Of a stretch of DNA of 45,268 nucleotides, positions 2,434 through 42,417 are shown piece after piece. Both the position numbers and the translations under genes were made by a program. Source of the stretch: Anaerolineae bacterium (GTDB lineage Bacteria; Chloroflexota; Anaerolineae; Anaerolineales; Anaerolineaceae); NCBI GenBank assembly GCA_013177815.1, contig JABLXM010000025.1, forward strand, positions 1-45,268. Direction: 5' to 3'. A model generated the notes under the pieces. That model made no database searches. It worked only from the letters and a program-made list of their open reading frames with translations, and was not told where the DNA came from. Each line of letters opens with the position of its first letter. Within the stretch, counting starts at the first letter, position 1.

Positions 2434-4428
2434 TCAATCTTCCGCCAGCCGGCTCCATTCCTCCATCAGGTCGTCCAATTCTGCCTGCACCTTGACCGTT
2501 TTCTGTCCCAGGTCTTGCGCTTGTGCATAAGATTGTTTCTGGCTGGCGCGTTCCAACTCTTTATAAAGGCGCTGTAGCGCCTGTTCGTGCTCATGAATAC
2601 GCGCTTCCAGTCGTTCCAATGCCTGCGAGCGTTGGCGCGCTTGCTTGCCATCTATTTTCACCAGCACTTTGTTGCGCGGGGGCGCTTTGCCTGCCAACAG
2701 CGATGGTGAGTTGCCTGCCTGCCGTAGCGAGAATTCGCGATAGTTGCCCTGGAACACCGCCAGCCGCCCGTCGCGCAGGTCCCAGATCTGGGTTGCCAGC
2801 CGGTCGATCAGGAAGCGGTCATGTGAAACCAGCAGGATGGTGCCCTTGAATGCCTCCAGCACCTCTTGCAGCGCCTCGCGCGCCGGGATATCCAGGTGGT
2901 TGGTGGGCTCGTCCAACACCAGGAAGTTGGAGCCTTCCAGCGCCAGTATTGCCAATGCCAGGCGCGCCCGCTCGCCGCCGCTGAGTGCGCTCAACGGCTT
3001 GAACACATCCTCGCCGCGGAACAGGTAGGCTGCCAGGTGGCTGCGCGCGGCGCCCTGATCCAGCGATTTGTGCTGCTGTAGTTCTTCCAGGATGTTGCGT
3101 TCGCCGCTCAGGCTGTCGTGCGCCTGGGCAAAGTAGCCGACTTTGAAACTGTTGCCGATCTCCACCTCGCCCGCCAGCGGTTCCAATTGCCCCAGCAAGG
3201 TTTTGATGAAGCTGGTCTTGCCGCTGCCGTTGGGTCCGATCAAAGCTACACACGCCCCCTGCCGCAGTTCCAGGTTCTGCACCTGGAACAGTTCGCTGCC
3301 GGGATAGCCGACCGTCAGCTCCCGCGCCCGCAGCGCGAACGTGCCGCCGCGCGCTTGCGGTTGCAGCCGCGGTTTCATCATCGGCGGGCGCGGGTTGTCC
3401 AGCGTGATGGCGTTCACCTTGCGGATGGCTTCGATCACATCCAGGTGCCGCTCCACATGCAGGTCGAACTCGGACCACTGTTTGCCGCTGCGTAACGCCA
3501 TGATGCCGAAATTCTCCACGATCGCCAGCTCCCGGCTGATTTGCCGCAGTTTGCCCAGCGCGCGGGCATGGGTGCTGTCGCGCACCCAGTTGCGCTGGAT
3601 GAAATCGACCGTTTTCAGCAGACGCGCTTTTTCCTCTTCGTACACCCGCTCGGTATACTCCCAGCGCTCTTGCCGATGCTGCAGGTAGGCGCTGTAGTTG
3701 CCGCTGTAGCTCTCCAGACCGTTGCGATTCATCTCCCACAGCGTGTTGACGGTGTTGTCCAGGAAGTACCGGTCGTGGCTGACGATCAGGAAGGCGCCTT
3801 CCCAGTTCGCCAGCGTGTGCTCCAGCCATTCCACCGCTTCCAGGTCCAGGTGATTGGTGGGTTCGTCCAGCATCAGCAGGTCGGGCTTTTCCAGCAGCAG
3901 CCGCGCCAGCAGCGCGCGCGTCTTTTGCCCGCCGCTCAGGTGATTGACCGGCATCTCCCAGGTCTCTTTGCCCAGCCCCAACCCTTGCAACGTTTGTTGG
4001 ATGCGCTGTTCGTAATCGTAACCGCCGGCGTGCTCGAAGTCGCTTTGCGCCTGACCGTAGCTTTGCAGCAGCGCCTCATCGTAATCACCGGATGCCATCT
4101 TCGCTTCGAGGTCGTGCAGGCGTTTTTGTTGTTTTTGCAGGTGGGCGAAAGCCGTCAACATCTCGGCGTGGACGCTGTTCAGGCGGTCGCCGAAGGCGTC
4201 CACGGCTTCCTGGCGCAGGTAGCCCAGCCGGGTGTTCTTGGCTTTCTGGATGTGCCCGGTGGTGGGCTGGTTGATGCCCGCCAGGATCAGCAGCAGCGAG
4301 GTCTTGCCGATCCCGTTTGGTCCGATCAAGCCCACCTTGCCGTCGCGCGGGATCGACAGGTTCACGCCTTTGAAGACGTCGAACGCGCCGTAGGATAGGC
4401 TGACATTCTTTGCGGTCAGTATGGACAT
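2434..4428 (-). CDS. ABC-F family ATPase (duplicated ATP-binding protein, no membrane domain)
   Basis: A 664-residue protein with two ABC ATPase domains. The first has Walker A GPNGIGKT (36-43), signature LSGGQ (~165) and Walker B LDEPTNHLD (~188); the second has GPNGSGKT (~397-404), LSGGE (~484) and LDEPTNHLD (~510). The interdomain linker (~240-330) is charged and helical, and residues ~600-660 form a C-terminal coiled coil (ALERLEARIHEHEQALQRLY). This is the ABC-F layout of translation factors acting at the ribosome (EttA, Uup and antibiotic-resistance members); no transmembrane segments are present. The coiled-coil tail recalls Uup, but the subfamily is not certain. It ends 10 nt from the tetR -35 box, so some read-through into tetR is possible. 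Confidence 0.95.
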   Translation of the reverse strand: MSILTAKNVSLSYGAFDVFKGVNLSIPRDGKVGLIGPNGIGKTSLLLILAGINQPTTGHIQKAKNTRLGYLRQEAVDAFGDRLNSVHAEMLTAFAHLQKQQKRLHDLEAKMASGDYDEALLQSYGQAQSDFEHAGGYDYEQRIQQTLQGLGLGKETWEMPVNHLSGGQKTRALLARLLLEKPDLLMLDEPTNHLDLEAVEWLEHTLANWEGAFLIVSHDRYFLDNTVNTLWEMNRNGLESYSGNYSAYLQHRQERWEYTERVYEEEKARLLKTVDFIQRNWVRDSTHARALGKLRQISRELAIVENFGIMALRSGKQWSEFDLHVERHLDVIEAIRKVNAITLDNPRPPMMKPRLQPQARGGTFALRARELTVGYPGSELFQVQNLELRQGACVALIGPNGSGKTSFIKTLLGQLEPLAGEVEIGNSFKVGYFAQAHDSLSGERNILEELQQHKSLDQGAARSHLAAYLFRGEDVFKPLSALSGGERARLALAILALEGSNFLVLDEPTNHLDIPAREALQEVLEAFKGTILLVSHDRFLIDRLATQIWDLRDGRLAVFQGNYREFSLRQAGNSPSLLAGKAPPRNKVLVKIDGKQARQRSQALERLEARIHEHEQALQRLYKELERASQKQSYAQAQDLGQKTVKVQAELDDLMEEWSRLAED

Positions 4429-12371: not shown

Positions 12372-14519
12372 ATGCCGATGACCGACCCCGCAGCCTACGA
12401 CCCTGAGAACATCACCAACCCCAACAACTACATCAACCGTGAACTGGCGCTGCTTGCCTTCCAATACCGTGTGCTGGAAGAAGCCATGGACCCTGCCAAC
12501 CCGCTGCTCGAACGGGTCAAATTCCTTGCCATCGTTGGCGCCAACCTGGATGAATTCTTCATGGTGCGCGTCGGCGGGCTAGAACTCCAGCAGATGGAAG
12601 GCGTTACCGACCTCTCCATCGACGGCATGACCGCCGCCGAGCAGCTCGCTGCCATCCGCCGCGAATCCTACAAGCTCATGAAGGAAGCCCGCCGCTGCTT
12701 CCACGAGGTGCTCATCCCTGAACTTGATAACGCCGGCATCCACGTGCGTGACTATGCCGACCTGCCCGAAAAGCAGAAAGCCGTTGCCGACGAGTATTTC
12801 CATCAGGTGGTTTATCCCGTGCTCACCCCGCTCGCCTTCGACCCCGGACACCCCTTTCCCCACATATCCAACCTCTCCCTCAACCTGGCGGTTGCCATTG
12901 AAGATCCTCAACATAACCGCCGCTTCGCCCGCGTCAAAGTGCCGGATTCATTCCCTATCCTTATCCCGCTCAAAGCCTCCTCCGGTTCAGTGCGCAAGGA
13001 CGGCACCGTTCCTTACAATCACTACTTCGTCTGGAACAGCCATGTCATCAAAGCCAACCTCGCCAGCCTTTTCCCGGGCATGAAGGTGGTCGAAGCCCAT
13101 GCCTTCCATGTTACCCGCAACGCCGATCTTGAGATCCAGGATCTGGAATCCGATGACCTGCTTGAGACGATGGAAGAGAACGTCCGCAAGCGCCGCTTTG
13201 GGCACGTCGTCCGCCTGATGGTGCAAACCGACATGCCGGAATTCATCCGCCAGACGCTGGTCGAGAACCTACTCATGGATCCCAAGGATGTCTATATCAT
13301 GGAACCGCCGCTTTCGCTCGGCGCCATCATGCAGATGACCCGTATCGAACGCTTGGACCTCAAATACCGCTCCTTCCAGCCCGCCATCCCTGAACCGCTC
13401 AGACCCAGCCTCATCGAGCGCACTGCCCCCATCTTCGACGCCATCCGCACCCAGGATATCCTCCTCCACCAGCCCTATGACTCCTTCTCGCCGGTGGTCG
13501 AGTTCTTGCGCGCTGCCTCGCGTGATCCCAAGGTGCTTGCCATCAAGATGACCCTCTATCGCGTGGGCAGCAACTCGCCCGTTGTGCAAACGCTGTTGGA
13601 AGCCCGCCGCGATTATGGAAAGCAGGTCGCCGTCCTGGTCGAATTGAAAGCCCGCTTCGACGAAGAATCCAACATCAGTTGGGCGAAGATGCTAGAGCAG
13701 GAAGGCGTCCACGTGACTTACGGTTTGGTCGGCTTGAAGACCCACTGTAAGATCGCCCTGGTCGTGCGCCAGGAGGGGGAAGGCATTCGCCGTTACATCC
13801 ACCTCGGCACCGGCAACTACAATCACATCACCGCCAGCATGTACGAGGATTTGGGACTTTTCACCGTGGATGACGACATCGGCGCCGATGCCTCGGACCT
13901 CTTCAACTATCTCACCGGCTACTCCCTCAAGCAGGATTATCGCAAATTGTTGGTGGCGCCCATCAACTTGCGCCAGGGCATCAGCCAATTGATCCAGGAC
14001 GAGATCGACCTGCACAAGCGCAACGGACACGGTCACCTCATCTTCAAGTTCAACTCGCTCTCGGATGCCGGATTGATCCGTCAGCTCTACCAGGCGTCGC
14101 AAGCTGGCGTCAAGGTTGACCTGCTGGTGCGCGGGCTGTGCTGCCTGCGCCCCGGCATCCCCGGGCTCAGTGAGAACATCCGCGTCATCAGCATCGTGGG
14201 GCGTTTCCTGGAGCACAGCCGTGTCTACTACTTCCGCAACGGCGGCTCGCCGCGCGTTTACATGGGCAGCGCCGACCTGATGCCGCGCAACCTGGATCGC
14301 CGGGTGGAGGTGCTCTTCCCGGTCGAGGATCCCAACCTGGCGCAGCATGTCCATAGCAAGATCCTGCGGGTTTACCTCTCGGATAACGTCAAATCCCGCC
14401 TCATGCAGCCGGATGGCGCTTATGAGCGTATCCAACCGCGTTCCCGCCGTTACCTGCGCAACGTGCAGGAGATGTTGATCAAACACGAATCGCTGCCGGC
14501 GGATGAGGAAGACGCCTGA
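12372..14519 (+). CDS. ppk1: Polyphosphate kinase 1
   Basis: A 715-residue PPK1, which reversibly polymerises the gamma phosphate of ATP into polyphosphate. The N domain begins YINRELALLAFQYRVLEEA; the middle reads SPVVEFLRAASRDPKVLAIKM and TLYRVGSNSPVV. The two histidines of the phosphohistidine/catalytic pair are in GLKTHCK (H458) and LEHSRVYYF (H615); their 157-residue spacing equals that of H435 and H592 in the E. coli enzyme. The C-terminal phospholipase-D-like domains contain GTGNYN and MGSADLMPRNLDRR. Full family length. It is monocistronic, with its own promoter and a large inverted repeat after the stop. No exopolyphosphatase gene is adjacent. Confidence 0.97.
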   Translation: MPMTDPAAYDPENITNPNNYINRELALLAFQYRVLEEAMDPANPLLERVKFLAIVGANLDEFFMVRVGGLELQQMEGVTDLSIDGMTAAEQLAAIRRESYKLMKEARRCFHEVLIPELDNAGIHVRDYADLPEKQKAVADEYFHQVVYPVLTPLAFDPGHPFPHISNLSLNLAVAIEDPQHNRRFARVKVPDSFPILIPLKASSGSVRKDGTVPYNHYFVWNSHVIKANLASLFPGMKVVEAHAFHVTRNADLEIQDLESDDLLETMEENVRKRRFGHVVRLMVQTDMPEFIRQTLVENLLMDPKDVYIMEPPLSLGAIMQMTRIERLDLKYRSFQPAIPEPLRPSLIERTAPIFDAIRTQDILLHQPYDSFSPVVEFLRAASRDPKVLAIKMTLYRVGSNSPVVQTLLEARRDYGKQVAVLVELKARFDEESNISWAKMLEQEGVHVTYGLVGLKTHCKIALVVRQEGEGIRRYIHLGTGNYNHITASMYEDLGLFTVDDDIGADASDLFNYLTGYSLKQDYRKLLVAPINLRQGISQLIQDEIDLHKRNGHGHLIFKFNSLSDAGLIRQLYQASQAGVKVDLLVRGLCCLRPGIPGLSENIRVISIVGRFLEHSRVYYFRNGGSPRVYMGSADLMPRNLDRRVEVLFPVEDPNLAQHVHSKILRVYLSDNVKSRLMQPDGAYERIQPRSRRYLRNVQEMLIKHESLPADEEDA

Positions 14520-27866: not shown

Positions 27867-29432
27867 ATGCTTCAACAGGGAGAAGTTGTCAACAACCGCT
27901 ACCGCATTGCCAGGACGATCGCGCAAGGGGGATATGGCGTCGTCTATCGCGCCTGGGATATGAACCTCAACTGTCCCTGTGCCCTGAAAGAGAACCTGGA
28001 AACATCCATCCCCGCCCAGGCGCAATTCGAACAGGAAGCTGTTTTCCTTTCACGGCTGCGCCATCCGAACTTGCCGCGCGTCAGCGATTACTTCTTTATA
28101 TCCGGGCGCGGGCAATACCTGGTGATGGACTTCGTCGAGGGTGAGGATTTGCAGACCCGCCTGCTCAAAGCCAACGCACCGCTGCCGGAATCCGAGGTGA
28201 TGCCGTGGGTTCTTCAGGTATGTGACGCGCTTCTCTACATGCATAGCCAATCGCCGCCCATCATCCACCGCGATATCAAACCCGCCAATATCCGCATCAC
28301 GCCTGAGGGCAATGCCATGTTGGTGGATTTCGGCGTCTCCAAAGCCTTCGACCCCGGTCGTCGCACTGCTGCGGTTGCTCGCGCAGTCAGTTCAGGTTTT
28401 TCACCGTATGAACAGGATAGTTATGGGTTGACGGATGCCCGTTCGGATGTCTATGCCCTGGCTGCTACTGCATACGCGCTGCTGACCGGCGAAGAGCCAT
28501 GTGGAAGTCTGGCGCGCAAGATGGGAACCGCTACGCTCAAAGAACCGCGTGCTCTCAACCCGTCCATTTCGCCCGCAGTGGAGACCGCCTTGCTCGAAGC
28601 GATGGCGATCGAACCGGAGGATCGCGTTCAGAGCGTGTCGGAATTCCGCCATTTGCTCACCCAGCAGCCGGTTGACCTTCAGACGATGCCGGATACCGTT
28701 ACAGTGCCACATATTGGAGCGTCGCCCATCGCCACCCTGCCGGCGCAGCCTTTCGATGCCTCGCAGCCGCAGCCGGTCGAAAAATCGCACCGCACCGGCT
28801 ACATTATCGCCGCCATCGCGGCTGCCGGGTTGCTGTTGTTGGCGCTGTTAGGCGGGTTTGTTGTTCTCACTCAATTCGACCTTTTCCCGTCCATCGTCAC
28901 GCAGGGGCGCACGCCCACGGTGGCGCTGGCGGTGTCCGCCAGCCCTGCGTCCGTGATCAGCGCCACCGCCGAGCGACCGCAATTTTCGATGACCCTCATC
29001 CCGGCAGCCTCTGGCACGCCGGACCCCTCTTCCAACTTTGCTTATCTTTCGAGCTTGGTTTATGAGGACAGCGAGGATGTGCTTACACCGGGGTACTATC
29101 TTGATCGCGCCAGGGGTCGCAATGACCAGGCGATCATTCTCAGCCTGGGATGGTGCGCTACGACGGTGGAGATCCTGAATGACAACTGGACGAAGATGGC
29201 GTACCGCCTGACCATCGATGGTCGCGAAATCGATCTTGCAACGCAGGCTTATCTAAATTCCTGGGATGGCAGTATTGGACCTTGCTACGGGCGCAACATG
29301 CTGGTCAGCAATTGGTCGTCTGGTGAACACAGCATCATCTGGACTCACATCATCATGGAAGACCTCAATGATGGTCAGGATGCCTACCGGGCGGGCGATT
29401 ACATCATGGAGACCCTGTTGAGCATCCCTTGA
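27867..29432 (+). CDS. Transmembrane Ser/Thr protein kinase
   Basis: A 521-residue Hanks-type kinase. The kinase domain (about 12-265) has a glycine loop AQGGYGVVY (19-27), the ATP lysine K41 in CALKE, catalytic HRDIKPANI (HRD 134-136) and DFG (154-156), so it should be active. A Pro-rich stretch leads to one membrane helix (311-335). The extracellular part (~340-521) has a low-complexity linker and a ~130-residue domain with cysteines (SLGWCATTVEIL, GSIGPCYGRN) that I do not recognise; it may sense an envelope signal. GAGGG precedes the ATG. The membrane subtilase gene follows after 87 nt in the same direction, so the two may act together. Confidence 0.94.
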   Translation: MLQQGEVVNNRYRIARTIAQGGYGVVYRAWDMNLNCPCALKENLETSIPAQAQFEQEAVFLSRLRHPNLPRVSDYFFISGRGQYLVMDFVEGEDLQTRLLKANAPLPESEVMPWVLQVCDALLYMHSQSPPIIHRDIKPANIRITPEGNAMLVDFGVSKAFDPGRRTAAVARAVSSGFSPYEQDSYGLTDARSDVYALAATAYALLTGEEPCGSLARKMGTATLKEPRALNPSISPAVETALLEAMAIEPEDRVQSVSEFRHLLTQQPVDLQTMPDTVTVPHIGASPIATLPAQPFDASQPQPVEKSHRTGYIIAAIAAAGLLLLALLGGFVVLTQFDLFPSIVTQGRTPTVALAVSASPASVISATAERPQFSMTLIPAASGTPDPSSNFAYLSSLVYEDSEDVLTPGYYLDRARGRNDQAIILSLGWCATTVEILNDNWTKMAYRLTIDGREIDLATQAYLNSWDGSIGPCYGRNMLVSNWSSGEHSIIWTHIIMEDLNDGQDAYRAGDYIMETLLSIP

Positions 29433-29519
29433 CCCATTCCACCCCCATATTTTCGCGGCAGATGGATTCGCACTCGTGCCGCCAATGCTCCATGAACTTT
29501 GCCACAGGAGGTAAATGAA

Positions 29520-31859
29520 ATGAGCGACAATCCCATAGCTGAAGAAACACCTGAACCGATCCAACCGGTTGAAGATCCCGGCCATACCGCTCCGCCACCA
29601 CCGGCAGAGGGGGAAGCACCGCCGGAACCACCGCGCTGGTACGAACGCATGGCATCCCGCCGGGGCATTCTGCTGATCGGCGCTATCGTGGTCGTGCTGC
29701 TGGCGTTGGCGGCGATTGGGGGTTACTTCGCCCTCAACAATCAGCCGACCCCCACCCCGCCGACGTTCAACTTCACCCCGCCCCCTTCGCTGGAGGAACT
29801 TGCCGCCGAGTATCCTGAGTATGCCGATATCCTGCTGGACCCTGCGTTGGATAGCGTCTATAAGGATTTCCTGCTCGAATATGAGCGTGGGGGGACGGAT
29901 GCCGCCATCGAACTGGCTAAGATGCGCGGCATTCTCAACCGGGAGGGGCAGGTGGTCGTTACGCTGGTGCTGGATACCGAGGATACCGCCCCGCTGATCG
30001 AAGAATTGGAGGGCATGGGCATCATCGTCACCACCGTCGCCGGCAACCAGGTTGATATCGCCATCCCATCTGAATTGATCGAAGAAGAGATCGACAAAGA
30101 TAAACCTGGCGAGACATTCAAGGACCTCATCACGCTGGAGCATGTCGTGCGTGTCAAACTGCCCACCACCGGATTGCCGGACCAGGAGGGCATTGGCGGC
30201 GAATCTCTGCCGGTTATCAATGCAATCGCCTGGCACAACGCTGGCGTGACCGGCGCGGGCGTCAAGGTCGGCATCCTGGATATGGGCTTCGATGGTTACC
30301 GTGACTTGCTCGGTTCGGACCTGCCTGCCAGTGTGACCGCCCAATCTTTTATCTCTGGCGTCGAGATCGATGATACCGGCATCGTCCACGGCGCCGCAGT
30401 CGCAGAGATCATCCATGATATTGCCCCGGATGCCGAGTTATACCTGGCTGCTTACCAGACCGATACCGAACGAGAAACTGCTGTTCAATGGTTGCTCAGC
30501 AACAACGTTGACCTGATCCAGCATTCCTGCAACTCGATCTATGGACCGATGGATGGAACCAGCCGCATCTCACGGATGATCGACGATATCTATGACAGTG
30601 GCATCCTATGGATCAACTCAGCCGGTAACCAGGCTGAGCGTCACTATCGCGGCACGTTCACCGATAGCGACAATGACGGCTTCCATGAGTTCTCACCGGG
30701 CAATGAGGGCTATCCGATCTACCCCTTCGGCTGGACTCGCATTTCGTTGCTGTGGGATGATTGGGCAAGCGGTTCTGAGGATTACGCCCTGGTGATCTTC
30801 GACAATGACGGCAATGTTGTCACCGCGAGTGACAATACCCAGGATGGGGGGGATGATGCTGCCGAATTCATCGCCTATGAATTTCCGGATAATGGTCCCT
30901 ACCAACTCGCGGTTTATGCCAACAACATCACCCACCCCGCCACTTTTGATATCTTCGGCTTCTACGTCGACTTTGACTATCCGGTGGCGGCTTATAGCGT
31001 GACCATTCCCGCGGATTCTCGCGGTGCGTTGACGGTTGGCGCAGTCTACTGGGAAAACGACGCGCTGGAGGATTATTCATCGGAAGGACCCACCTGGGAC
31101 GGTCGATTGAAACCCGAGATCTCCGCCCCCAGCGTGGTCGAGAGCGCTTCGTATGCGCCTTTTGACCAACGCTTCAATGGCACCTCTGCCGCGGCGCCGC
31201 ACGTCTCCGGCTCGGCTGCCCTGGTGATGGAAGCTTTCCCCGATATGACCGCCGCGGAAGTGCGCCAGTTCCTGCTGGACCGCAGCCAGGACCTGGGGAA
31301 TGCCGGACCGGACCCGGCTTTTGGCATGGGGCGGCTCTTCTTGGGATCGCCGCCAGGTGTTGGCGATGCGCCCACGCCGGTCGTATCCCCGCCGGATGTC
31401 CCAACTGTGACGCCGATGGTTGTCACGCCCCTCGCGCCGGTGCTGACGCCGATACCGCCGGCTGGCGGCGATGGTGGTGGGGGCATCAGCCTGTCGGCAA
31501 TCCTGATCGTCGTTGCCTGTCTTGTCATGTTGGCGGTTGGTTTCCTGGTGCTGTTGGTGATCGTCATCCTGCTCGCGCGCCGGCGCAAACCCAAGCGACC
31601 CACCTCCCCGCCGCGTCCGCCTTACCCACCGCCGCCTGCGCCTCCCGCGCCGCAGCAGATGCGGCGTCCAACACCGCCGCCACCCCCGCCGCCGGTGCAA
31701 CGCATACAGGTGCCGCCAACCCCGAACCCGGTGCCCCCGCCTGTGCTGCAGCCACCCCCAGCGCCGCCGCAGCCTAAACCGGCTTTCTGCCGCTACTGTG
31801 GCAAACCGGTCAAGCCGGGCGCCAGGTTCTGCAATAATTGTGGCAAGCAACTGGGATAA
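29520..31859 (+). CDS. Membrane-anchored subtilisin-like (S8) protease with cytoplasmic zinc ribbon
   Basis: A 779-residue protein. A short acidic Pro-rich cytoplasmic N-terminus leads to TM1 (~49-71). The exported region contains the S8 triad: D254 in VGILDMGFDG, H290 in IVHGAAVAEII and S556 in FNGTSAAAPHVSG, with the oxyanion asparagine in NSAGNQAE. A large insertion (~360-500) includes beta-rich PPC-like sequence. TM2 lies at ~655-688, followed by a basic stop (ARRRKPKR), a long proline-rich stretch, and a C-terminal zinc ribbon with CRYCGK and CNNCGK. The protease domain is therefore outside and the zinc ribbon inside. AGGAGG precedes ATG 29520. It is preceded by a kinase gene and followed by a strong terminator. 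Confidence 0.93.
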   Translation: MSDNPIAEETPEPIQPVEDPGHTAPPPPAEGEAPPEPPRWYERMASRRGILLIGAIVVVLLALAAIGGYFALNNQPTPTPPTFNFTPPPSLEELAAEYPEYADILLDPALDSVYKDFLLEYERGGTDAAIELAKMRGILNREGQVVVTLVLDTEDTAPLIEELEGMGIIVTTVAGNQVDIAIPSELIEEEIDKDKPGETFKDLITLEHVVRVKLPTTGLPDQEGIGGESLPVINAIAWHNAGVTGAGVKVGILDMGFDGYRDLLGSDLPASVTAQSFISGVEIDDTGIVHGAAVAEIIHDIAPDAELYLAAYQTDTERETAVQWLLSNNVDLIQHSCNSIYGPMDGTSRISRMIDDIYDSGILWINSAGNQAERHYRGTFTDSDNDGFHEFSPGNEGYPIYPFGWTRISLLWDDWASGSEDYALVIFDNDGNVVTASDNTQDGGDDAAEFIAYEFPDNGPYQLAVYANNITHPATFDIFGFYVDFDYPVAAYSVTIPADSRGALTVGAVYWENDALEDYSSEGPTWDGRLKPEISAPSVVESASYAPFDQRFNGTSAAAPHVSGSAALVMEAFPDMTAAEVRQFLLDRSQDLGNAGPDPAFGMGRLFLGSPPGVGDAPTPVVSPPDVPTVTPMVVTPLAPVLTPIPPAGGDGGGGISLSAILIVVACLVMLAVGFLVLLVIVILLARRRKPKRPTSPPRPPYPPPPAPPAPQQMRRPTPPPPPPPVQRIQVPPTPNPVPPPVLQPPPAPPQPKPAFCRYCGKPVKPGARFCNNCGKQLG

Positions 31860-32091: not shown

Positions 32092-35000
32092 ATGCCCGCC
32101 TCGCCATCCGACAAACCGGAATGGTATTGCCGGGCGATTGACGCGTTGCGCCGGGGAGACAAACGGCGCGCCTATGACCTTGCCGGCGCGGCGCTCGAAG
32201 AGGGCATCCACGCCGAATTGCCTTTTTTGATCCTTGCGGCTGCCAGTGATGATCCACAGGAGAGTATACGATTTCTGGACCAGGCTTTGAAAATCAATCC
32301 TGCCAGCCATGCTGCGCAGGAAGGGTTGGTCTGGGCACGCGAGCGCCTGGCGAAGCAAACCGGGTCGAGGATGCCTCAACCTATCTCCGATCTTTGCACA
32401 GAAACTACGCCGGCGCCATCCCTGGATCTGCCTGAACCGCCACCGGAAGCTGAGGATACCTTTCCTGTCCGCACCCAACCCATGCGGGTGCATCAGACGG
32501 TGCATGCGACCGGCAGAAAAGCTGAACCGAGTCCCAAACCCGAAGCTAAATACCCCTGGCTGCCCGTGGTGGTGCGCAGGCTGCTCTATAGCCTGCTGAT
32601 CTTGCTTTGCATCGCTTACATCACGATATTCAGCCAGGACCTGGCGCTTGCAGGTCGCAAGGGCATTGCCATCAACCTGGGTCAGTCTGCGTTGAATGCG
32701 CTGCAGGGATTGTTCGATTACATTTTCCACCACCCGCCCACCTACCTTTGGCACCACGAGGTCAAATCGGCATTATCGGTCATCTGGACCTTATTCCTCA
32801 ACAGCGCCGGGCTTTTGGGAGTATCGTTGCTGCTGGCGACAGCGCTGGGTGTGCTGCTTGGCACCATTGCTGCGCTCTATCGCCGCCAGAACGTCGCTCC
32901 GTTGATGATCATGCTGTCCATCCTGGGCGTCTCGGTCCCATCCTTCCTGTTGGCGATGTTGTTATGGGTTGCGAACACCAAAATCTACCAGTTGCTGCAA
33001 ACGCCCACCGCCCCGCTGCCGCCGACCGGTTTTGGCTGGGACCTGCACCTGGTGATGCCCGCCATTGTCCTGGCTGCCCGCCCGCTCGCCCAGATCATGC
33101 AGGTCACTTATGTCAGCCTGCAGGATGTCTTCAATCAAGAGTACCTGCGCTCGGCGCGCGCTCGTGGCGCCAGTGAGCGCTATATCCTCTTCGAGCATGC
33201 TTACCGCAATATCCTTATCCCTGTCCTGACGACGCTGGGCACCTCGCTGCGCTTTTCGCTCGCCAGTTTGCCAGTGGTCGAGACCTTTTTCCTCTGGCCC
33301 GGTCTCGGTTCCGCGCTGCTGGATGCACTGGATAAGAACATGGGCACACTGGTGACCGATATTATCCTCTCGCTGGGCTTGCTGTTCTTGTTGTTGAACT
33401 TTCTCCTGGATGTGCTTTACCCGCGCCTTGACCCTCGGCTACAGGGCAATGGCTCGTCGAATATGCAAGATGAAAGGCAGTGGGGAGGGGCAGGCAGCAG
33501 TTTTGGCGCAACGATCCAAGCCTTTTTCAGAGGGCTGCGCCGGCGCTCGCCCCCTCATACAGACAAGCGATCCAGCCAAAAACCAGCGCCGGATTCACGC
33601 TCCCCGCAACCGCATGGCGCGACCGTTACCCTGGCAGAGGCGCGCCTGGAGGATGCCTCATACGCAACCGGCAGGAATTACACCCTGCGAGCGATCTTCA
33701 CCAACCCCGCCCTTATGCTGGGCACTTTGATGGTGATCGGACTGGTGTTTTTGGTGCTGTTCGGTTCGCAGTTGTCCCCTGCCAACCCCTACCAGGTCAA
33801 CGATATCATCAGCATCAACGGTTCGATCAAAAGTCCACCCTTTGAACCCTCGCCCGAATTCCCTTGGGGCTCGGATATCATTGGACGGGATATCCAGGCG
33901 CTGGTGCTTACTGGTGCGCGGCAGACGCTCGCCATGGGTTTGTTCACTACCATTGCCCGGGTGGCGCTGGGTGTGCTGTTGGGCATGCTGGCTGGCTGGT
34001 GGGTCAATAGTTGGCTCGACCGTGCGGTGCAATCCGCCATATCCATTATGGCAGCCTTCCCGGTGACTATCTTTGCCATGTTGCTGATCCTGGGCATTGG
34101 TATTCAAAAGGGTATGAGCGTTTTCATCATCGCGTTATGCGTGGTTGGTTGGGGAGAGATCGCCCAGTTCGTGCGCGCCCAGGTGATCTCCCAAAAACCG
34201 TTGTTGTATATCGAATCTGCCCATGCGGTCGGCGCCAAGCCCGGAAGGATCCTGTTGCGCCACATCATGCCGCACCTGTTGCCCGGCATCATGGTGATGG
34301 CAGTGTTGGAAATGGGTGGTGTGCTGACATTGTTGGCAGAACTTGGATTTTTGAACATCTTTCTGGGGGGCGGTTTTCAATTGATGATCGGCGAGATTGG
34401 GCGCATGCAGCCTGTGTTCTTTTTCTTCTCCGATGTTCCCGAATGGGGTGCCTTGCTCGCCAACATCCGCAACTGGTGGCGCTCCTATCCGTGGGTTGCC
34501 TGGTATCCTGGTTTATTCTTCTTCCTTGCCATTCTGACCTTCAACCTGTGGGGTGAAGGATTGCGCCGCTTCATCGAGGAAACCCGCTTCAACGTCAGCA
34601 AACTGTTCAACCGCCACACCCTGGTGCTGGGGCTTGTAGTCGTCATTGGTGTTGGTTCTTTACTGCGTTCCAGTTCGCCCATCGAGCAATATCGACCGCA
34701 AGCGAAATTATTCGATGCCAATAAAGCCATGCCGCATATCGCTGCGCTCGCCTCGCCGGAGTTCGCCGGACGCGAAAGCGGCACTGAAGGCGGTCGCCTG
34801 GCTGCCGAATATATCGCTGCGCAGATGGAAGCCATTGGGCTTTTCCCAGCCGGCGGTAACGATACCTTCATTCAATCCATAGCCAACCCCCGCGCACATC
34901 TTGGGGGCGTTCCCACACTTGAGATCGTTGATGGCGCCGGGCAGGTGTTGGAAGCCCTGACCTACCGCCAGGACTTCGTCGAATATATCCAGAGTTACCC

Positions 35001-36075
35001 GTTGATGGGTGAGGCTTCGGCTCCGGTCGTTGGAGTCGTTTTGGGCGCCACTACCGGAGATTCACTTGACGAGGCGGTGAAGATCATCGATGACAATCTC
35101 AACGAGAAGATCCTGGTCATATCGGAAGCGGACCTTGCCCGCATGGATGTGCGCCGCGGCATCGGCTACCTGGTCATCGCCGAGGATGCGGATTTCGCCA
35201 TTGAACGTTTCGTCTATCCACAGGGTGATCTTTTCAGTAATGTCGAAACCCCCATCGCCTATATTTCACCGGCGTTGGCAGACCGTTTGCTGGCGCCGCA
35301 GGGCGGTTTGGAAGGGCTGCAAATGCTGGCAGAAAGCCTACCGCCGGGTAGCTACGGTTCGACCGCCGATGGGCTTGCCGTACGCCTGAACATACCGCAG
35401 CAGGAACTCGATAAGGACGAAGTTTACTATAACGTCATCGGCTATATTCCGGGTTTCGATGCCATTTCCGGTCTCGATAAGCAAGTCATCATCGTCAGCG
35501 CTTATTATGATGGTCTTGGGACGGGTCCGGAAGGCACACTCTACCCCGGCGCCAATGACAATGCCAGCGGAGTCGCCGCCATGCTGGAGATTGCCCGAGT
35601 CTTGAAGCAGGAGGCGCTCTTCGATCCGGATAAGACCGTCGTCTTCATTGCCTGGAGCGGCGGTGAGCGTCGGGAAGCCTTGAGCGATTCTGAGGTGATG
35701 AATGCCAAGGGTGGTTTTGGCTTGCTCAATGTCGAGGTGATCCTGGAGTTGAGCGGCGTGGGCGCCGGCACCGGCGAGGGCATCGCCATCGGTCAGGGCA
35801 CCTCTTACCGCCTGGCGACGCTGGTCAGCGATGCTGCCGGGCGGCTTAACATCCCGGTCACACAACGGGGGCGCGGTCCGCATTTTGGGCAGTTCACCAA
35901 CCTGGCGTTCGGTGGGCGCGATGCGCTTTCCGCCTATATTCACTGGGATGGTTCGGATTGGCTGGCGCACACCCCCCAGGATACCTACGACATCATCGAC
36001 CCGCAAAAAATGCAGCAGGTCGGTGAAACCACCATGTTGGTGCTCACCGTCATCAGCCGTGAGGTTAATTATTGA
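32092..36075 (+). CDS. Fusion: TPR-like region + DppB-like permease + DppC-like permease + degenerate M28 peptidase
   Basis: One uninterrupted 1,327-residue frame. Residues ~10-85 are TPR-like (RRGDKRRAYDLAGAALEEG, FLDQALKINPASHAAQEG). A Pro-rich linker leads to a first permease (~160-460) with the ABC permease coupling loop EYLRSARARGASERYILFEH. A second permease (~528-875) contains PWGSDIIGRDIQALVLTGAR and the loop YIESAHAVGAKPGRILLRH. These match the two membrane subunits of dipeptide/oligopeptide ABC importers, normally separate proteins. Residues ~880-1327 resemble an M28 aminopeptidase, but its first zinc histidine is Y1138 (AYYDG), the catalytic glutamate is G1191 (AWSGGER), and a later metal aspartate is S1221; D1156, E1192 and H1293 remain. 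It is probably not catalytic. No ATPase or binding-protein gene is nearby. Confidence 0.9.
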   Translation: MPASPSDKPEWYCRAIDALRRGDKRRAYDLAGAALEEGIHAELPFLILAAASDDPQESIRFLDQALKINPASHAAQEGLVWARERLAKQTGSRMPQPISDLCTETTPAPSLDLPEPPPEAEDTFPVRTQPMRVHQTVHATGRKAEPSPKPEAKYPWLPVVVRRLLYSLLILLCIAYITIFSQDLALAGRKGIAINLGQSALNALQGLFDYIFHHPPTYLWHHEVKSALSVIWTLFLNSAGLLGVSLLLATALGVLLGTIAALYRRQNVAPLMIMLSILGVSVPSFLLAMLLWVANTKIYQLLQTPTAPLPPTGFGWDLHLVMPAIVLAARPLAQIMQVTYVSLQDVFNQEYLRSARARGASERYILFEHAYRNILIPVLTTLGTSLRFSLASLPVVETFFLWPGLGSALLDALDKNMGTLVTDIILSLGLLFLLLNFLLDVLYPRLDPRLQGNGSSNMQDERQWGGAGSSFGATIQAFFRGLRRRSPPHTDKRSSQKPAPDSRSPQPHGATVTLAEARLEDASYATGRNYTLRAIFTNPALMLGTLMVIGLVFLVLFGSQLSPANPYQVNDIISINGSIKSPPFEPSPEFPWGSDIIGRDIQALVLTGARQTLAMGLFTTIARVALGVLLGMLAGWWVNSWLDRAVQSAISIMAAFPVTIFAMLLILGIGIQKGMSVFIIALCVVGWGEIAQFVRAQVISQKPLLYIESAHAVGAKPGRILLRHIMPHLLPGIMVMAVLEMGGVLTLLAELGFLNIFLGGGFQLMIGEIGRMQPVFFFFSDVPEWGALLANIRNWWRSYPWVAWYPGLFFFLAILTFNLWGEGLRRFIEETRFNVSKLFNRHTLVLGLVVVIGVGSLLRSSSPIEQYRPQAKLFDANKAMPHIAALASPEFAGRESGTEGGRLAAEYIAAQMEAIGLFPAGGNDTFIQSIANPRAHLGGVPTLEIVDGAGQVLEALTYRQDFVEYIQSYPLMGEASAPVVGVVLGATTGDSLDEAVKIIDDNLNEKILVISEADLARMDVRRGIGYLVIAEDADFAIERFVYPQGDLFSNVETPIAYISPALADRLLAPQGGLEGLQMLAESLPPGSYGSTADGLAVRLNIPQQELDKDEVYYNVIGYIPGFDAISGLDKQVIIVSAYYDGLGTGPEGTLYPGANDNASGVAAMLEIARVLKQEALFDPDKTVVFIAWSGGERREALSDSEVMNAKGGFGLLNVEVILELSGVGAGTGEGIAIGQGTSYRLATLVSDAAGRLNIPVTQRGRGPHFGQFTNLAFGGRDALSAYIHWDGSDWLAHTPQDTYDIIDPQKMQQVGETTMLVLTVISREVNY

Positions 36076-37034
36076 TGGAAACTAAACGCTTAGGTCGTCG
36101 CGAATGGCGTTACTTCCTGCCCGCCACCGCAGGGCGCAATGAGTTCTGGCGCTACCTGGTGGTCTGCCTGGCTGCAATCTTCATCAGCATTGGCGTCAGC
36201 GTCTTCTTGGTCGTGTTTGCCATGCTGGTGGAAGGCAATATGGATCTCACCCGTTGGTCCGAGATCACGCTGTTGATCGTCGGGATGGTGCCCTTCCCAT
36301 TCGTTTTGCTCACATTGTGGCTGGGGCAGCGTTTTCTCCACCAGCGACCGTTCCAGACGCTCATCACGCCCTTCCGGCGCATTGCCTGGAGGCGGGTGCT
36401 GGTTTCGGGCGCGCTGTGGTTTGCCCTTGCGGGTCTTTCGGATATCATCCTGTCCTTCATGCAGCCGGGGAACTACGCCTGGGCGCTCGATTTGCGCCGC
36501 TTTGTCCCCTATGCCCTGCTCTCGCTGGTGTTGATTCCCATCCAGACCAGCACCGAAGAACTGCTGTTTCGTGCGTATTTGCCGCAGGGACTCAGTCGGC
36601 TGGCGCGCGGCATCTGGCTGCCGGTGATCATCTCATCGTTGGTGTTTGGGCTGCTTCATGGCGTCAACCCGGAGGTCGACCTGTATGGCATGTTATACAC
36701 CATGCCGTTCTACATCGGCATTGGCGCCCTGTTGATGCTCGTAACGCTGTTCTCTGAAAGCCTGGAGCTGGCGCTCGGTCTGCACGCTGCCAACAACCTC
36801 TATGCCGCCACCATGGTGACCTTTCCCGGTTCGGCGCTTGCTTCGCCAACTTTGTTCGCCATCAAGGAGTATGATGCCGGTTTGGCGCTGGCGATCTTTT
36901 TTATCATGGCGTTGGTCTACGTGCTCATCCTGGCAGCGCTGGGGTTCTTCAAACCGCGTCAGCAAGCGATTGTCTACCCCCCGTCGCCAGTCGCGTCATC
37001 TCTCGAACCCGACCCCGTGTCTGAGTTGGGTTGA
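36075..37034 (+). CDS. CPBP family intramembrane metalloprotease
   Basis: A 319-residue membrane protein with about eight hydrophobic helices. It has the CPBP (Abi/CaaX protease and bacteriocin-processing) motifs: EExxxR as STEELLFR (E161, E162, R166), FGLLHG (H195) and HAANN (H237, N241). Members are intramembrane metalloproteases related to Rce1; the bacterial substrate is unknown. Its ATG shares one base with the TGA of the permease-M28 fusion gene (TGATG), so translation is coupled and the two proteins probably act together. Its last 61 bp overlap the convergent SDR gene on the other strand. Confidence 0.93.
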   Translation: METKRLGRREWRYFLPATAGRNEFWRYLVVCLAAIFISIGVSVFLVVFAMLVEGNMDLTRWSEITLLIVGMVPFPFVLLTLWLGQRFLHQRPFQTLITPFRRIAWRRVLVSGALWFALAGLSDIILSFMQPGNYAWALDLRRFVPYALLSLVLIPIQTSTEELLFRAYLPQGLSRLARGIWLPVIISSLVFGLLHGVNPEVDLYGMLYTMPFYIGIGALLMLVTLFSESLELALGLHAANNLYAATMVTFPGSALASPTLFAIKEYDAGLALAIFFIMALVYVLILAALGFFKPRQQAIVYPPSPVASSLEPDPVSELG

Positions 37035-39513: not shown

Positions 39514-40986
39514 TCAGGGCAACGGCACCAGCCAATGATCCTCGAAATCGCCCTCGGCGGTCCAGCCTTCCAGTCCGCTCGACTCGGAGCGAATGCGCCA
39601 CCAAACCCAGGTGTCGGCGCAGTCTGGTCCATTGACGATTCTGACGGTTTCACCCGGCTGTATCTTGCCCAGTAGTTGGAAGGATTTGCCGGCGCTGGCG
39701 CGTACGTTGTTCGCCAACGCTGGATCGAGGGAGACGTGGGCGCGCATGCCGACATTCAATTGGCTGGGCGGCGCATCTGCGCATGGATACCAGGTGGGCT
39801 GGGCGGTTGCTGTTGCCGTGAAGACGGGTGTCGGCGTCAGGGTTCTTGCCTTTGTGGGCGTTCGTGTTGGCGCGGCGGCGGTAGCGCTGGCGGGGAGCGG
39901 GCTGCTGGTTGCCTGCCGTGTGGGGGTGGAGTGATCCATCGGGACCGAAGCCGGTCTATTGATCAGCAACATACCAGTCACCACTGCGGCAGCCAGGAGC
40001 AGCAGCACGGCTGTCGCCACGGGGCGTGATAATACCAGCTTGGGCGGGCTGCCCCGTTCCGCTGCGTCCGGCTTGCCTGACGCAACCGCATGGGAGGGAC
40101 CGTCCGTCGATTGTGGGATTATTGCATCCGCTGGCACCGGGGGTACCTCAGCCAGGTGAGGCGTTCGTGCGGCAGCGTGGTGGTCAGCGGTCACCGCCGC
40201 CAACGAGAGCAGGGCTTGCTTCATTTCCAGTGCATGCTGGAACCGTTTGTCCGGCGCCATTTGCATGGCTTTGACGAGGGCGGCATCGATTCGCGGACTG
40301 ATGCTGCCGTTGAGCGAGCGCGGCGACGGCAGCGGTTGACCGCTTTGACGCTTGACCGCCTCCGGCGGCTCGATCCCGGTCAGCAGGGTGTACAGCGTGG
40401 CGCCGAGGGCATAGATGTCACTGCGAGCGTCGATGCGCCCTTTCCCCCCTTGTTCGGGTGGCTGGAAGCAGTTTTTATCGGCATTGCGCCCCGGGGCTGG
40501 GTCGGCGCACTTCCCAGCTTCGAAACCTACCAGGATGACATTCCCGCGCGGGTCGATCTTGATGTTGGCGGGCTTGATATCGCGGTGGATGACCGGCGGT
40601 TGCTGGTTGTGCATGTATTCGAGCGCGTTCAATACCTGGATGCTCCAGGGGATCAACTGGTTTTCGGGTAGCACGCCGCCCCGCGCCAGCATCGCGTCCA
40701 GGTCATCGCCCTGGATATATGCCATCACCAGGTATTGCCCCTCGTTTGGAATGCTGAAGTAATCGGTGACGCGTGCCAGGTTGGGGTGGTTGAGTTTGGT
40801 CAGCATCAGTGCTTCGCTGCGGAAGGCATCCTGCGCTTCCAATCCAGATACTGAAGTCTCCTTGAGAATGACTGCAATGTTCAGGCTGAGATCCCAGGCG
40901 CGGTAAACCGCGCCGGGCGCTCCTTGCTTGAGCAGTTTGGCGACCTGGTAGCGGTTGATGAGAACGGTTCCCTGGGTGAGCGACAT
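39514..40986 (-). CDS. Transmembrane Ser/Thr kinase-like protein lacking DFG (predicted pseudokinase), SH3-like C-terminus
   Basis: A 490-residue protein with a Hanks kinase fold (about 10-265). The ATP lysine (K42 in VILKE), the helix-C glutamate (E58) and HRDIKPANI (HRD 134-136) are kept, but the Mg2+-binding DFG reads GFE (154-156, in LVGFEAGK) and the glycine loop is KQGAPGAVY. Loss of the DFG aspartate predicts weak or no catalysis. A membrane helix follows (~308-330), then a Thr/Pro-rich linker and an SH3b-like extracellular domain (~405-490: VRASAGKSFQLLGKIQPGE, WWRIRSESSGLEGWTAE). It lies 81 nt behind an intact kinase gene and is probably the last gene of that operon. Confidence 0.9.
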   Translation of the reverse strand: MSLTQGTVLINRYQVAKLLKQGAPGAVYRAWDLSLNIAVILKETSVSGLEAQDAFRSEALMLTKLNHPNLARVTDYFSIPNEGQYLVMAYIQGDDLDAMLARGGVLPENQLIPWSIQVLNALEYMHNQQPPVIHRDIKPANIKIDPRGNVILVGFEAGKCADPAPGRNADKNCFQPPEQGGKGRIDARSDIYALGATLYTLLTGIEPPEAVKRQSGQPLPSPRSLNGSISPRIDAALVKAMQMAPDKRFQHALEMKQALLSLAAVTADHHAAARTPHLAEVPPVPADAIIPQSTDGPSHAVASGKPDAAERGSPPKLVLSRPVATAVLLLLAAAVVTGMLLINRPASVPMDHSTPTRQATSSPLPASATAAAPTRTPTKARTLTPTPVFTATATAQPTWYPCADAPPSQLNVGMRAHVSLDPALANNVRASAGKSFQLLGKIQPGETVRIVNGPDCADTWVWWRIRSESSGLEGWTAEGDFEDHWLVPLP

Positions 40987-41067: not shown

Positions 41068-42417
41068 TCAATCGCGCACGATCACGAAGGGATCGGGAAG
41101 CGTGCCTGTTTGAAGATTGCGTTCCAGGGAGGCTGCGAAGGCGACCGGCAGGATGCGCACCTGTATTTGAACTTGTTCGCCCGGCAGCAGGCTGAAGCGC
41201 GGCAGTGGGATCTCGATCCAATCGACGATCGGCTGCAATGTGCCGCTGACCAGACCAGATGAGTTGGTGTTGGTCAGGAGCACAGCCACATTTTCCCCGT
41301 TTCGCAGCTTCGGAAACACCTGTGCGCGCCCGAAGTCCACTTGCGCTTCTGCCCGTGGTCTTCCCAGCCTGCGCAGCAGCCGTTCCAACCATTGGTCCGG
41401 GTCGGGATGTTTTGCCTGGTTGATGATTGCCGTGTCACTGCCAAGATATTTCAGGCAGGCTGCCATGCGCCCGCTGGATAGCGCTTTGCGTGCCGTTTCC
41501 CAACCTGTGCGCGATGAATCGCACAGGTCGAACAATTCCTTGAGGGTGTGGATCTCGCTGGCGGGGTCTTTTGGATTCAGGCGAAAACCGTGGTGGCTTT
41601 GTAGCGCCTGTTCGAATGCCTTGCCAAATTCCGCCACGCTCGGATAACGGTCGGCGGGGTCGATGGACAGGGCGCGCACCAGGATGGCATCCACGGCTGG
41701 CGGCAGCATTGGCTGGAAGTGGCTGGCTGGCTTGAGCGGGTTGGTCGCGGCGAAACGCAGCGGGCTTTCGGGGGGCACGACGGCGGTCAACAAGGTGTAA
41801 AGCGTGGCAGCCAGGGCATATTGATCGCTCGCGGGGGTGGTGCCGGTGCGGGTGTACTGTTCCGGCGGGGAATACCCTTCGCTTACACCCAGCGCGCCCG
41901 CCTGGGTTGGAATGCGCGGCTGGCTCACCTTGGCGATACCGAAATCGATCAGGTAGAGCGCGTCTGTTGGCGTCAGGATGAAATTGGCTGGTTTGATATC
42001 GCGGTGGATGACGGGGTGGGGGGTCTGGTCGTGCAGGTGTTGCACAGCGGAGATCATTTGCGGCAGCCATTCCAGCACCTGTTCGGTCGAAAATGGCGCT
42101 CCGGCGTCATCCATCATCTCTTGCAGGTTGGTGCCGGCGATGTAGTCCATGACGAAGAATTGCCCGGCGGGGTCATCGAAAAGGTCGCTGACGCCGGGCA
42201 GGTTTGGATGCGACAGCCCGGATAGGATGCGGGCTTCCTGCAGGAATTGGGCACCGCCTTCATTCGAGCTATCCAGGTTCTGCTTTACAGCGCACCTGCG
42301 CTGGAGTTGCTCGTCCTGGCACAGGTAGATGATGCCAAACCCGCCTTCCCGCAAGTGTTGCCGTACACGGTAGCGGTTGTGAAGCAGCGTTCCGGGGACC
42401 AATCGATGCGGTGGCAT
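41068..42417 (-). CDS. Ser/Thr protein kinase, soluble, with C-terminal beta-rich domain
   Basis: A 449-residue Hanks-type kinase with all key elements: REGGFGIIY (23-31), K45 in CAVKQ, HRDIKPANF (HRD 138-140), DFG (158-160) and YSPPEQY in the activation/P+1 region. It should be active. Unlike the neighbouring kinase-like proteins it has no membrane helix. Residues ~290-350 are helical (LKELFDLCDSSRTGWETAR), and ~355-449 look like a beta-sandwich (VAVLLTNTNSSGLVSGTLQP, FSLLPGEQVQIQVRIL) that may dock to a partner. It starts 12 nt after the coiled-coil membrane protein gene, so it probably phosphorylates or is recruited by that complex. Confidence 0.93.
   Translation of the reverse strand: MPPHRLVPGTLLHNRYRVRQHLREGGFGIIYLCQDEQLQRRCAVKQNLDSSNEGGAQFLQEARILSGLSHPNLPGVSDLFDDPAGQFFVMDYIAGTNLQEMMDDAGAPFSTEQVLEWLPQMISAVQHLHDQTPHPVIHRDIKPANFILTPTDALYLIDFGIAKVSQPRIPTQAGALGVSEGYSPPEQYTRTGTTPASDQYALAATLYTLLTAVVPPESPLRFAATNPLKPASHFQPMLPPAVDAILVRALSIDPADRYPSVAEFGKAFEQALQSHHGFRLNPKDPASEIHTLKELFDLCDSSRTGWETARKALSSGRMAACLKYLGSDTAIINQAKHPDPDQWLERLLRRLGRPRAEAQVDFGRAQVFPKLRNGENVAVLLTNTNSSGLVSGTLQPIVDWIEIPLPRFSLLPGEQVQIQVRILPVAFAASLERNLQTGTLPDPFVIVRD

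Follow-up and report, generated by a model that had tools for sequence, protein, structure and literature searches.

Dpp/Opp-type peptide importers are thought to require a protein of the substrate-binding protein (SBP) fold together with a matching ATPase pair, and a 45,268-nucleotide contig of an Anaerolineae bacterium (JABLXM010000025.1 of assembly GCA_013177815.1, called the window at its full length) raises the question of how both permease subunits could work when they are fused to each other and to a peptidase-like domain. An initial annotation made from the letters alone (the first-pass annotation) had described one frame holding DppB-like, DppC-like and M28 peptidase parts, with no ATPase or binding protein nearby, and this description held. 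The frame at 32092-36075 on the forward strand runs through 1,327 residues without an internal stop, Pfam finds BPD_transp_1 twice (8.9e-47) and Peptidase_M28 at residues 1114-1315 (PF04389, 4.1e-20), and the solved Escherichia coli DppB and DppC (8z1v) align to the respective halves; the NCBIfam matches listed for the fusion are permease models, all far under their cut-offs. The window contains no oligo_HPY ATPase and no SBP_bac_5 gene, and its sole ATP-binding cassette (ABC) ATPase-like open reading frame (ORF; 2434-4428) lies ~28 kb from the fusion. The answer to which we give about even chances is that the protein is the core of a peptide (Dpp/Opp) ABC importer in which a pseudo-peptidase ectodomain stands in for the binding protein, with an ATPase shared in trans. 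Its parts are as follows:

32092..36075, forward strand: fused DppB-DppC-pseudoM28 protein, 1,327 residues (single open frame, Pfam, homologues)
32092..32361, forward strand: optional cytoplasmic TPR-like N-terminus, residues 1-90 (alignment, weak TPR matches in relatives)
32554..33447, forward strand: DppB-like permease half, residues 155-452, whose TM1-TM2 segment has no PG[D/N/G]P-like turn of the kind at the start of the SBP-docking scoop in ordinary DppB (Pfam, match to solved DppB)
33682..34578, forward strand: DppC-like permease half, residues 531-829 (Pfam, NCBIfam, match to solved DppC)
34618..34674, forward strand: extra C-terminal transmembrane (TM) helix, residues 843-861, predicted to carry the ectodomain outside (hydropathy, positive residues ahead of the helix)
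34687..36072, forward strand: pseudo-M28 ectodomain, residues 866-1327, an M28 fold interrupted by a PA-like insertion (~930-1105) (Pfam, alignment to solved aminopeptidases, model)

The extra helix follows the DppC half, and the M28 part is therefore predicted to lie outside the cell. The TPR-like region is real but weak: it has no Pfam match in the fusion of the window, gives weak TPR matches in relatives and is missing from 5 of the 13 family members in the alignment. On another contig of the same genome (C4, L057:6165-7541), the N-terminus of a YkuD (L,D-transpeptidase) protein is homologous to this region, at 36% identity.

The triple fusion is a conserved family and not an assembly accident. 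Homologues spanning the DppB, DppC and M28 parts were found in 12 of 61 relatives' genomes, its own included (in 2 of the 12 they are split over contigs or hits), and the motifs RGRGPH and WDGSD are strongly conserved in the family alignment of 13 sequences. A search of other genomes for the same domain order, which had been proposed as a check, recovered it in ~40 of them, nearly all within one class, the copies sharing 45-54% identity when the genomes are related and some 35-54% over the class as a whole; the carriers include an Anaerolineaceae metagenome-assembled genome and the one-contig genome G307. As the fusion or in a second, two-gene form, in which DppB adjoins a DppC-M28 fusion, homologues are present in 74 of 396 genomes drawn from the class (57 genera), but in only 5 of the 400 genomes sampled at phylum level, 3 of which belong to the class. 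No relative of the fusion was found among the viral contigs searched, which served solely as a source of M28 rows for the folding alignment, and our literature searches found no paper on a DppB-DppC-M28 fusion. The window's genome assembly is fragmented (261 contigs), which might favor an assembly or reading-frame artefact, but the same fusion recurs in many independent genomes, G307 among them, and we consider the chance of an artefact negligible; because the same frame is open in all these genomes, the missed frameshift or stop that could have undone the first-pass description is excluded. In genome G011 (L040:7731-15286), two triple fusions stand in tandem, of which a single one has the TPR-like N-terminus.

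The metal site of the ectodomain is incomplete. The following positions were assigned from alignments, and the M28 register was verified against two solved aminopeptidases and intact relatives:

35500..35511, forward strand: A-Y1138-Y-D1140 (residues 1137-1140), Tyr in place of the metal His, D1140 retained
35551..35568, forward strand: ANDNAS motif (residues 1154-1159) with the bridging Asp, D1156
35662..35667, forward strand: G1191-E1192, Gly in place of the catalytic Glu, metal Glu retained
35752..35754, forward strand: S1221 at the late metal Asp position
35968..35970, forward strand: H1293, last metal His, kept

Alignments with solved and intact M28 domains agree with the earlier reading that the residues at Y1138, G1191 and S1221 have been lost and that D1156, E1192 and H1293 have been kept. 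One profile alignment proposed E1219 as the late metal ligand; closer relatives disagree, and S1221 is favored because LELSGVGAG matches LQLDMVGAG of a close intact domain without a gap. We made a local-pair alignment of 61 fused M28 domains with 16 domains of neighboring two-M28 proteins (described below), in which the full H/D/D/E/E/D/H set occurs in 0 of the 61 fused domains versus 8 of 8 first domains of the two-M28 proteins. The window clade reads Y-D-D-G-E-S-H, with two Zn2 ligands and the catalytic Glu gone, and the D1156/E1192/H1293 triad is retained in 17 of 19 rows of this clade as seen in the DppC tree. By alignment, these three residues correspond, as a predicted site, to Asp159, Glu202 and His330, the ligands of the one zinc ion in human glutaminyl cyclase (PMC11312887); GPAA1, an M28-type protein argued to hold a single zinc, also lacks the first His (PMC7522609). 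The term ‘degenerate’ in the first-pass annotation was thus right about the losses but missed that a complete single-zinc ligand set survives in the window clade, where, judging from the aligned residues, it should be read as one of two metal sites left and the catalytic base lost. Other clades lack the zinc triad (Q-D-D-E-G...R), the QDDEG clade having lost the equivalents of E1192 and H1293. An AlphaFold model of the ectodomain has a mean predicted local distance difference test score (pLDDT) of 68, mostly >75 in the core, and in fold comparisons it scores Z 31.8 against M28 aminopeptidases, 29.5 against a bacterial glutaminyl cyclase and 27.9 against the transferrin receptor.

The permease halves have kept the elements that dock ATPases and lost the one that marks the start of the SBP-docking scoop. 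Two loops carry the former:

33139..33210, forward strand: ATPase-docking (EAA) loop 1, residues 350-373 (alignment with E. coli DppB)
34207..34275, forward strand: ATPase-docking (EAA) loop 2, residues 706-728 (alignment with E. coli DppC)

E. coli DppB touches DppD via D235, T239, K243, H254 and N258 (PMC12136057), and E350, S354, R358, H369 and N373 of the fusion align with these residues. Among triple fusions, D/E, K/R and N are found at their positions in 42 of 42 and H in 41 of 42, and the T239 position varies (T in 27). The contact positions are also retained in the DppB of the two-gene form. In four PQQ-type DppB relatives they are mostly lost, and retention in the fusions is therefore not automatic. 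The first-pass idea that the TPR region recruits an ATPase is not supported by these data, since the region is absent from several aligned members and ordinary docking loops are kept in both halves. E. coli DppB inserts a scoop motif, which follows TM1 and precedes the alpha-3 helix, into the binding protein DppA (PMC12136057). The turn at the start of the scoop, defined here as [PS]G[DNGE][PIV] after TM1, is present in 19 of 20 ordinary DppB proteins of fusion-bearing genomes but in none of the 42 triple fusions, 18 two-gene proteins and 4 PQQ-type proteins, and is thus absent without exception from all 64 DppB parts of the lineage; the TM1-TM2 stretch is also shorter (median 59-63, with 59 for the triple fusions, vs 78 in ordinary DppB). 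A quick tree whose root was not independently fixed places all DppC proteins that bear an ectodomain, be it of M28 or PQQ/DUF885 type, in a single group separate from 17 ordinary DppC (SH-aLRT 100).

Where, then, might the ATPase come from? Oligo_HPY (DppD/F-type) ATPases are present in 57 of 57 fusion genomes tested, and nearly all of the oligo_HPY loci that we read adjoin ordinary permeases, the exceptions being a few that lie at the end of a contig or whose ORFs are not clearly called. We considered orphan DppD/F proteins as a dedicated partner and rejected them, as, with the same few exceptions, the oligo_HPY pairs examined in G000, G030, G031, G011, G018 and G042 adjoin ordinary DppB/DppC, and so do the DppD-DppF fusion proteins of further genomes that carry the permease fusion; G112 and G077 each have a single pair, within an operon holding its own DppB and DppC. 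Across 34 fusion loci (528 kb), ABC-ATPase matches fall in eight ORFs, none adjoining the fusion, and for the window's genome, G004, G031 and G013, the contigs with these ORFs are not among the oligo_HPY contigs. The earlier proposal of an ATPase from elsewhere is therefore supported in outline, but not its suggestion of an orphan OppD/OppF, and ATPase sharing would be needed because the ATPases examined adjoin ordinary permeases. Such sharing between ABC importers is known, e.g. for MsmK (PMC4519317). SBP homologues occur in one of the 34 loci, that of G307:

L256:3776-5728 and 12486-13697: SBP_bac_5 genes either side of the G307 fusion, one without its N-terminal third

Separately, we observed fused DppD-DppF ATPases of ~690-740 residues in several class genomes (L261-L277), inside ordinary Dpp operons; in L277, the ATPase domains are additionally fused to DppC (990 residues).

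We propose that the protein is the membrane core of a Dpp/Opp importer as one chain, in which a seventh membrane helix anchors a catalytically dead M28 ectodomain to the C-terminus of DppC. The ectodomain may catch peptide N-termini or similar ligands at the former active-site cleft, in the window clade probably by means of a single metal ion that D1156, E1192 and H1293 coordinate, and would pass the ligand to the channel beneath, doing the work of DppA/OppA. Transport would be powered by DppD/DppF-type ATPases of complete Dpp/Opp operons, bound at the two conserved loops. That the M28 part is an extracytoplasmic, non-catalytic replacement for a binding protein had been suggested in the first-pass annotation, and the lack of any complete site in the fused domains, the missing scoop turn and helix 843-861 support it. 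The broader claim, that this is a class of importers in which a fused, inactivated peptidase took over the SBP role, the SBP-docking element was lost and the ATPase is shared with other importers, we hold with slightly less than even confidence.

Neighboring and related genes include the following:

36075..37034, forward strand: CPBP (Rce1-like) ORF, overlapping the fusion stop codon (TGATG)
L238:10985-17122, L244:2152-7029, also L237, L239, L240, L249, L253 and L254: two-M28 proteins near the two-gene form
L052:2417-6418, L053:4370-9109, L054:9769-13314, L055:8866-11625 and L056:7798-10041: DppC fused to a PQQ/beta-propeller, one also with DUF885

The overlap with the CPBP gene had been taken as translational coupling to a possible processing partner; the overlap is real, but no CPBP homologue was found beside any other fusion copy, and because it is not conserved there, the gene is probably not part of the system. 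The CPBP ORF weakly matches NF041647 (ABC permease / CPBP fusion family), which is not among the matches listed for the fusion protein. Directly upstream of the fusion lies a subtilase (29499-31859) with a C-terminal TM, a proline-rich stretch and a zinc ribbon, and the window also contains Ser/Thr protein kinase-like genes (27867-29432, 39514-40986, 41068-42417), one Pfam-confirmed and the others recognized by sequence look. Eight two-gene loci encode close by a complete protein of ~1,600-2,050 residues with two M28 domains, the first intact and the second degenerate, some with a DUF418 or Peptidase_MA region; in some loci, a beta-propeller gene lies between the two-M28 gene and the permease genes. 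In these relatives, the two-M28 protein might make peptides outside the cell for uptake by the permease.

Several observations weigh against the importer that we propose. Oligo_HPY ATPases are found in 395 of 396 class genomes, so that there is no positive co-occurrence signal and we dropped co-occurrence as uninformative; SBP_bac_5 genes flank the fusion in the one-contig G307; the TM1-TM2 alignment between distant DppB proteins is loose; the PA-like insertion is modeled at low confidence; sister clades also lack the zinc triad, implying that a metal is not required family-wide; and in the two-gene clade, the ectodomain has eroded to a degree that makes a conserved pocket doubtful. The G307 genes, together with the several SBPs encoded in the window's genome and the two-M28 proteins of the two-gene loci, would fit a permease that uses ordinary SBPs from elsewhere, its pseudo-M28 domain being an adaptor that docks active extracellular peptidases at the channel for peptidase-coupled import. 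We regard this as unlikely, as the whole lineage lacks the scoop-opening turn and no two-M28 protein adjoins any triple fusion that we examined, including that of the window.

Another reading is a sensor or scaffold that no longer transports but retains the fold of a permease; the pseudo-peptidase would be its receptor outside the cell, and in members with a TPR region, this region would give the output in the cytoplasm. In its favor, no examined locus has its own DppD/F ATPase, the cytoplasmic TPR region is optional, and non-enzymatic M28-fold receptors do exist (transferrin receptor, PMC10794815), whose fold the ectodomain model matches. Such a scaffold would need neither of the two docking loops, both of which are kept, and the permease core is well conserved; we find this reading rather doubtful. 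Less probable still is an enzyme of altered chemistry, a mono-zinc hydrolase or cyclase processing peptides during uptake via D1156/E1192/H1293. The triad of the window clade is identical to the glutaminyl cyclase site, and RGRGPH and WDGSD are strongly conserved, but the general-base Glu has become Gly, the Asp matching Asp248 of the human enzyme has become Ser, and the related QDDEG clade lacks E1192 and H1293. If the shared-ATPase importer is the correct reading, it would show that the place of an SBP can be taken by a peptidase fold and that Dpp/Opp ATPases can work for several permeases, and it would name a route of peptide uptake in the uncultured bacteria of Anaerolineae type that abound in sludge and sediments.

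Compared with DppBCDF/OppBCDF importers (8z1v, 8z21; PMC12136057), the fusion is alike in both permease folds, paired in B-then-C order, and in EAA loops with the DppD-contact residues, but it joins B and C, has no SBP or DppD/DppF genes of its own at the locus (the SBPs beside the G307 copy excepted), lacks the scoop-opening turn and adds a TM helix and an ectodomain to DppC. With the SBP-fused GlnPQ and OpuA (PMC8025302, PMC11065425), it shares an extracytoplasmic module covalently joined to the membrane domain; theirs is a classical substrate-binding domain, whereas the fusion carries an M28 peptidase fold that would bind substrate. M28 aminopeptidases with a PA insertion (BSAP 6hc6, 2ek8) are alike in fold (model Z 31.8 to the Vibrio aminopeptidase 3b3v, 29.9 to 6hc6), but in the fusion Tyr, Gly and Ser replace, respectively, a metal His, the catalytic Glu and the late metal Asp, and the complete dinuclear site of the family is lost. 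Glutaminyl cyclase (M28-type, single zinc; PMC11312887) resembles it in the Asp/Glu/His ligand set, by alignment, and in fold (7d1d, Z 29.5), but keeps the catalytic Glu, first of an EE pair, and Asp248, both lost here (G1191, S1221), and is not joined to a permease. The transferrin receptor (PMC10794815; model Z 27.9 to 7zqs) likewise uses a membrane-tethered M28 fold for binding and not for catalysis, although it is eukaryotic, binds transferrin and has an unrelated membrane part. The DppC-PQQ propeller proteins (L052-L056) are a sister DppC lineage with a C-terminal ectodomain, as in the fusion, but the ectodomain is of another type and the four DppB proteins checked beside them mostly lack the DppD-docking residues that the fusion has kept.

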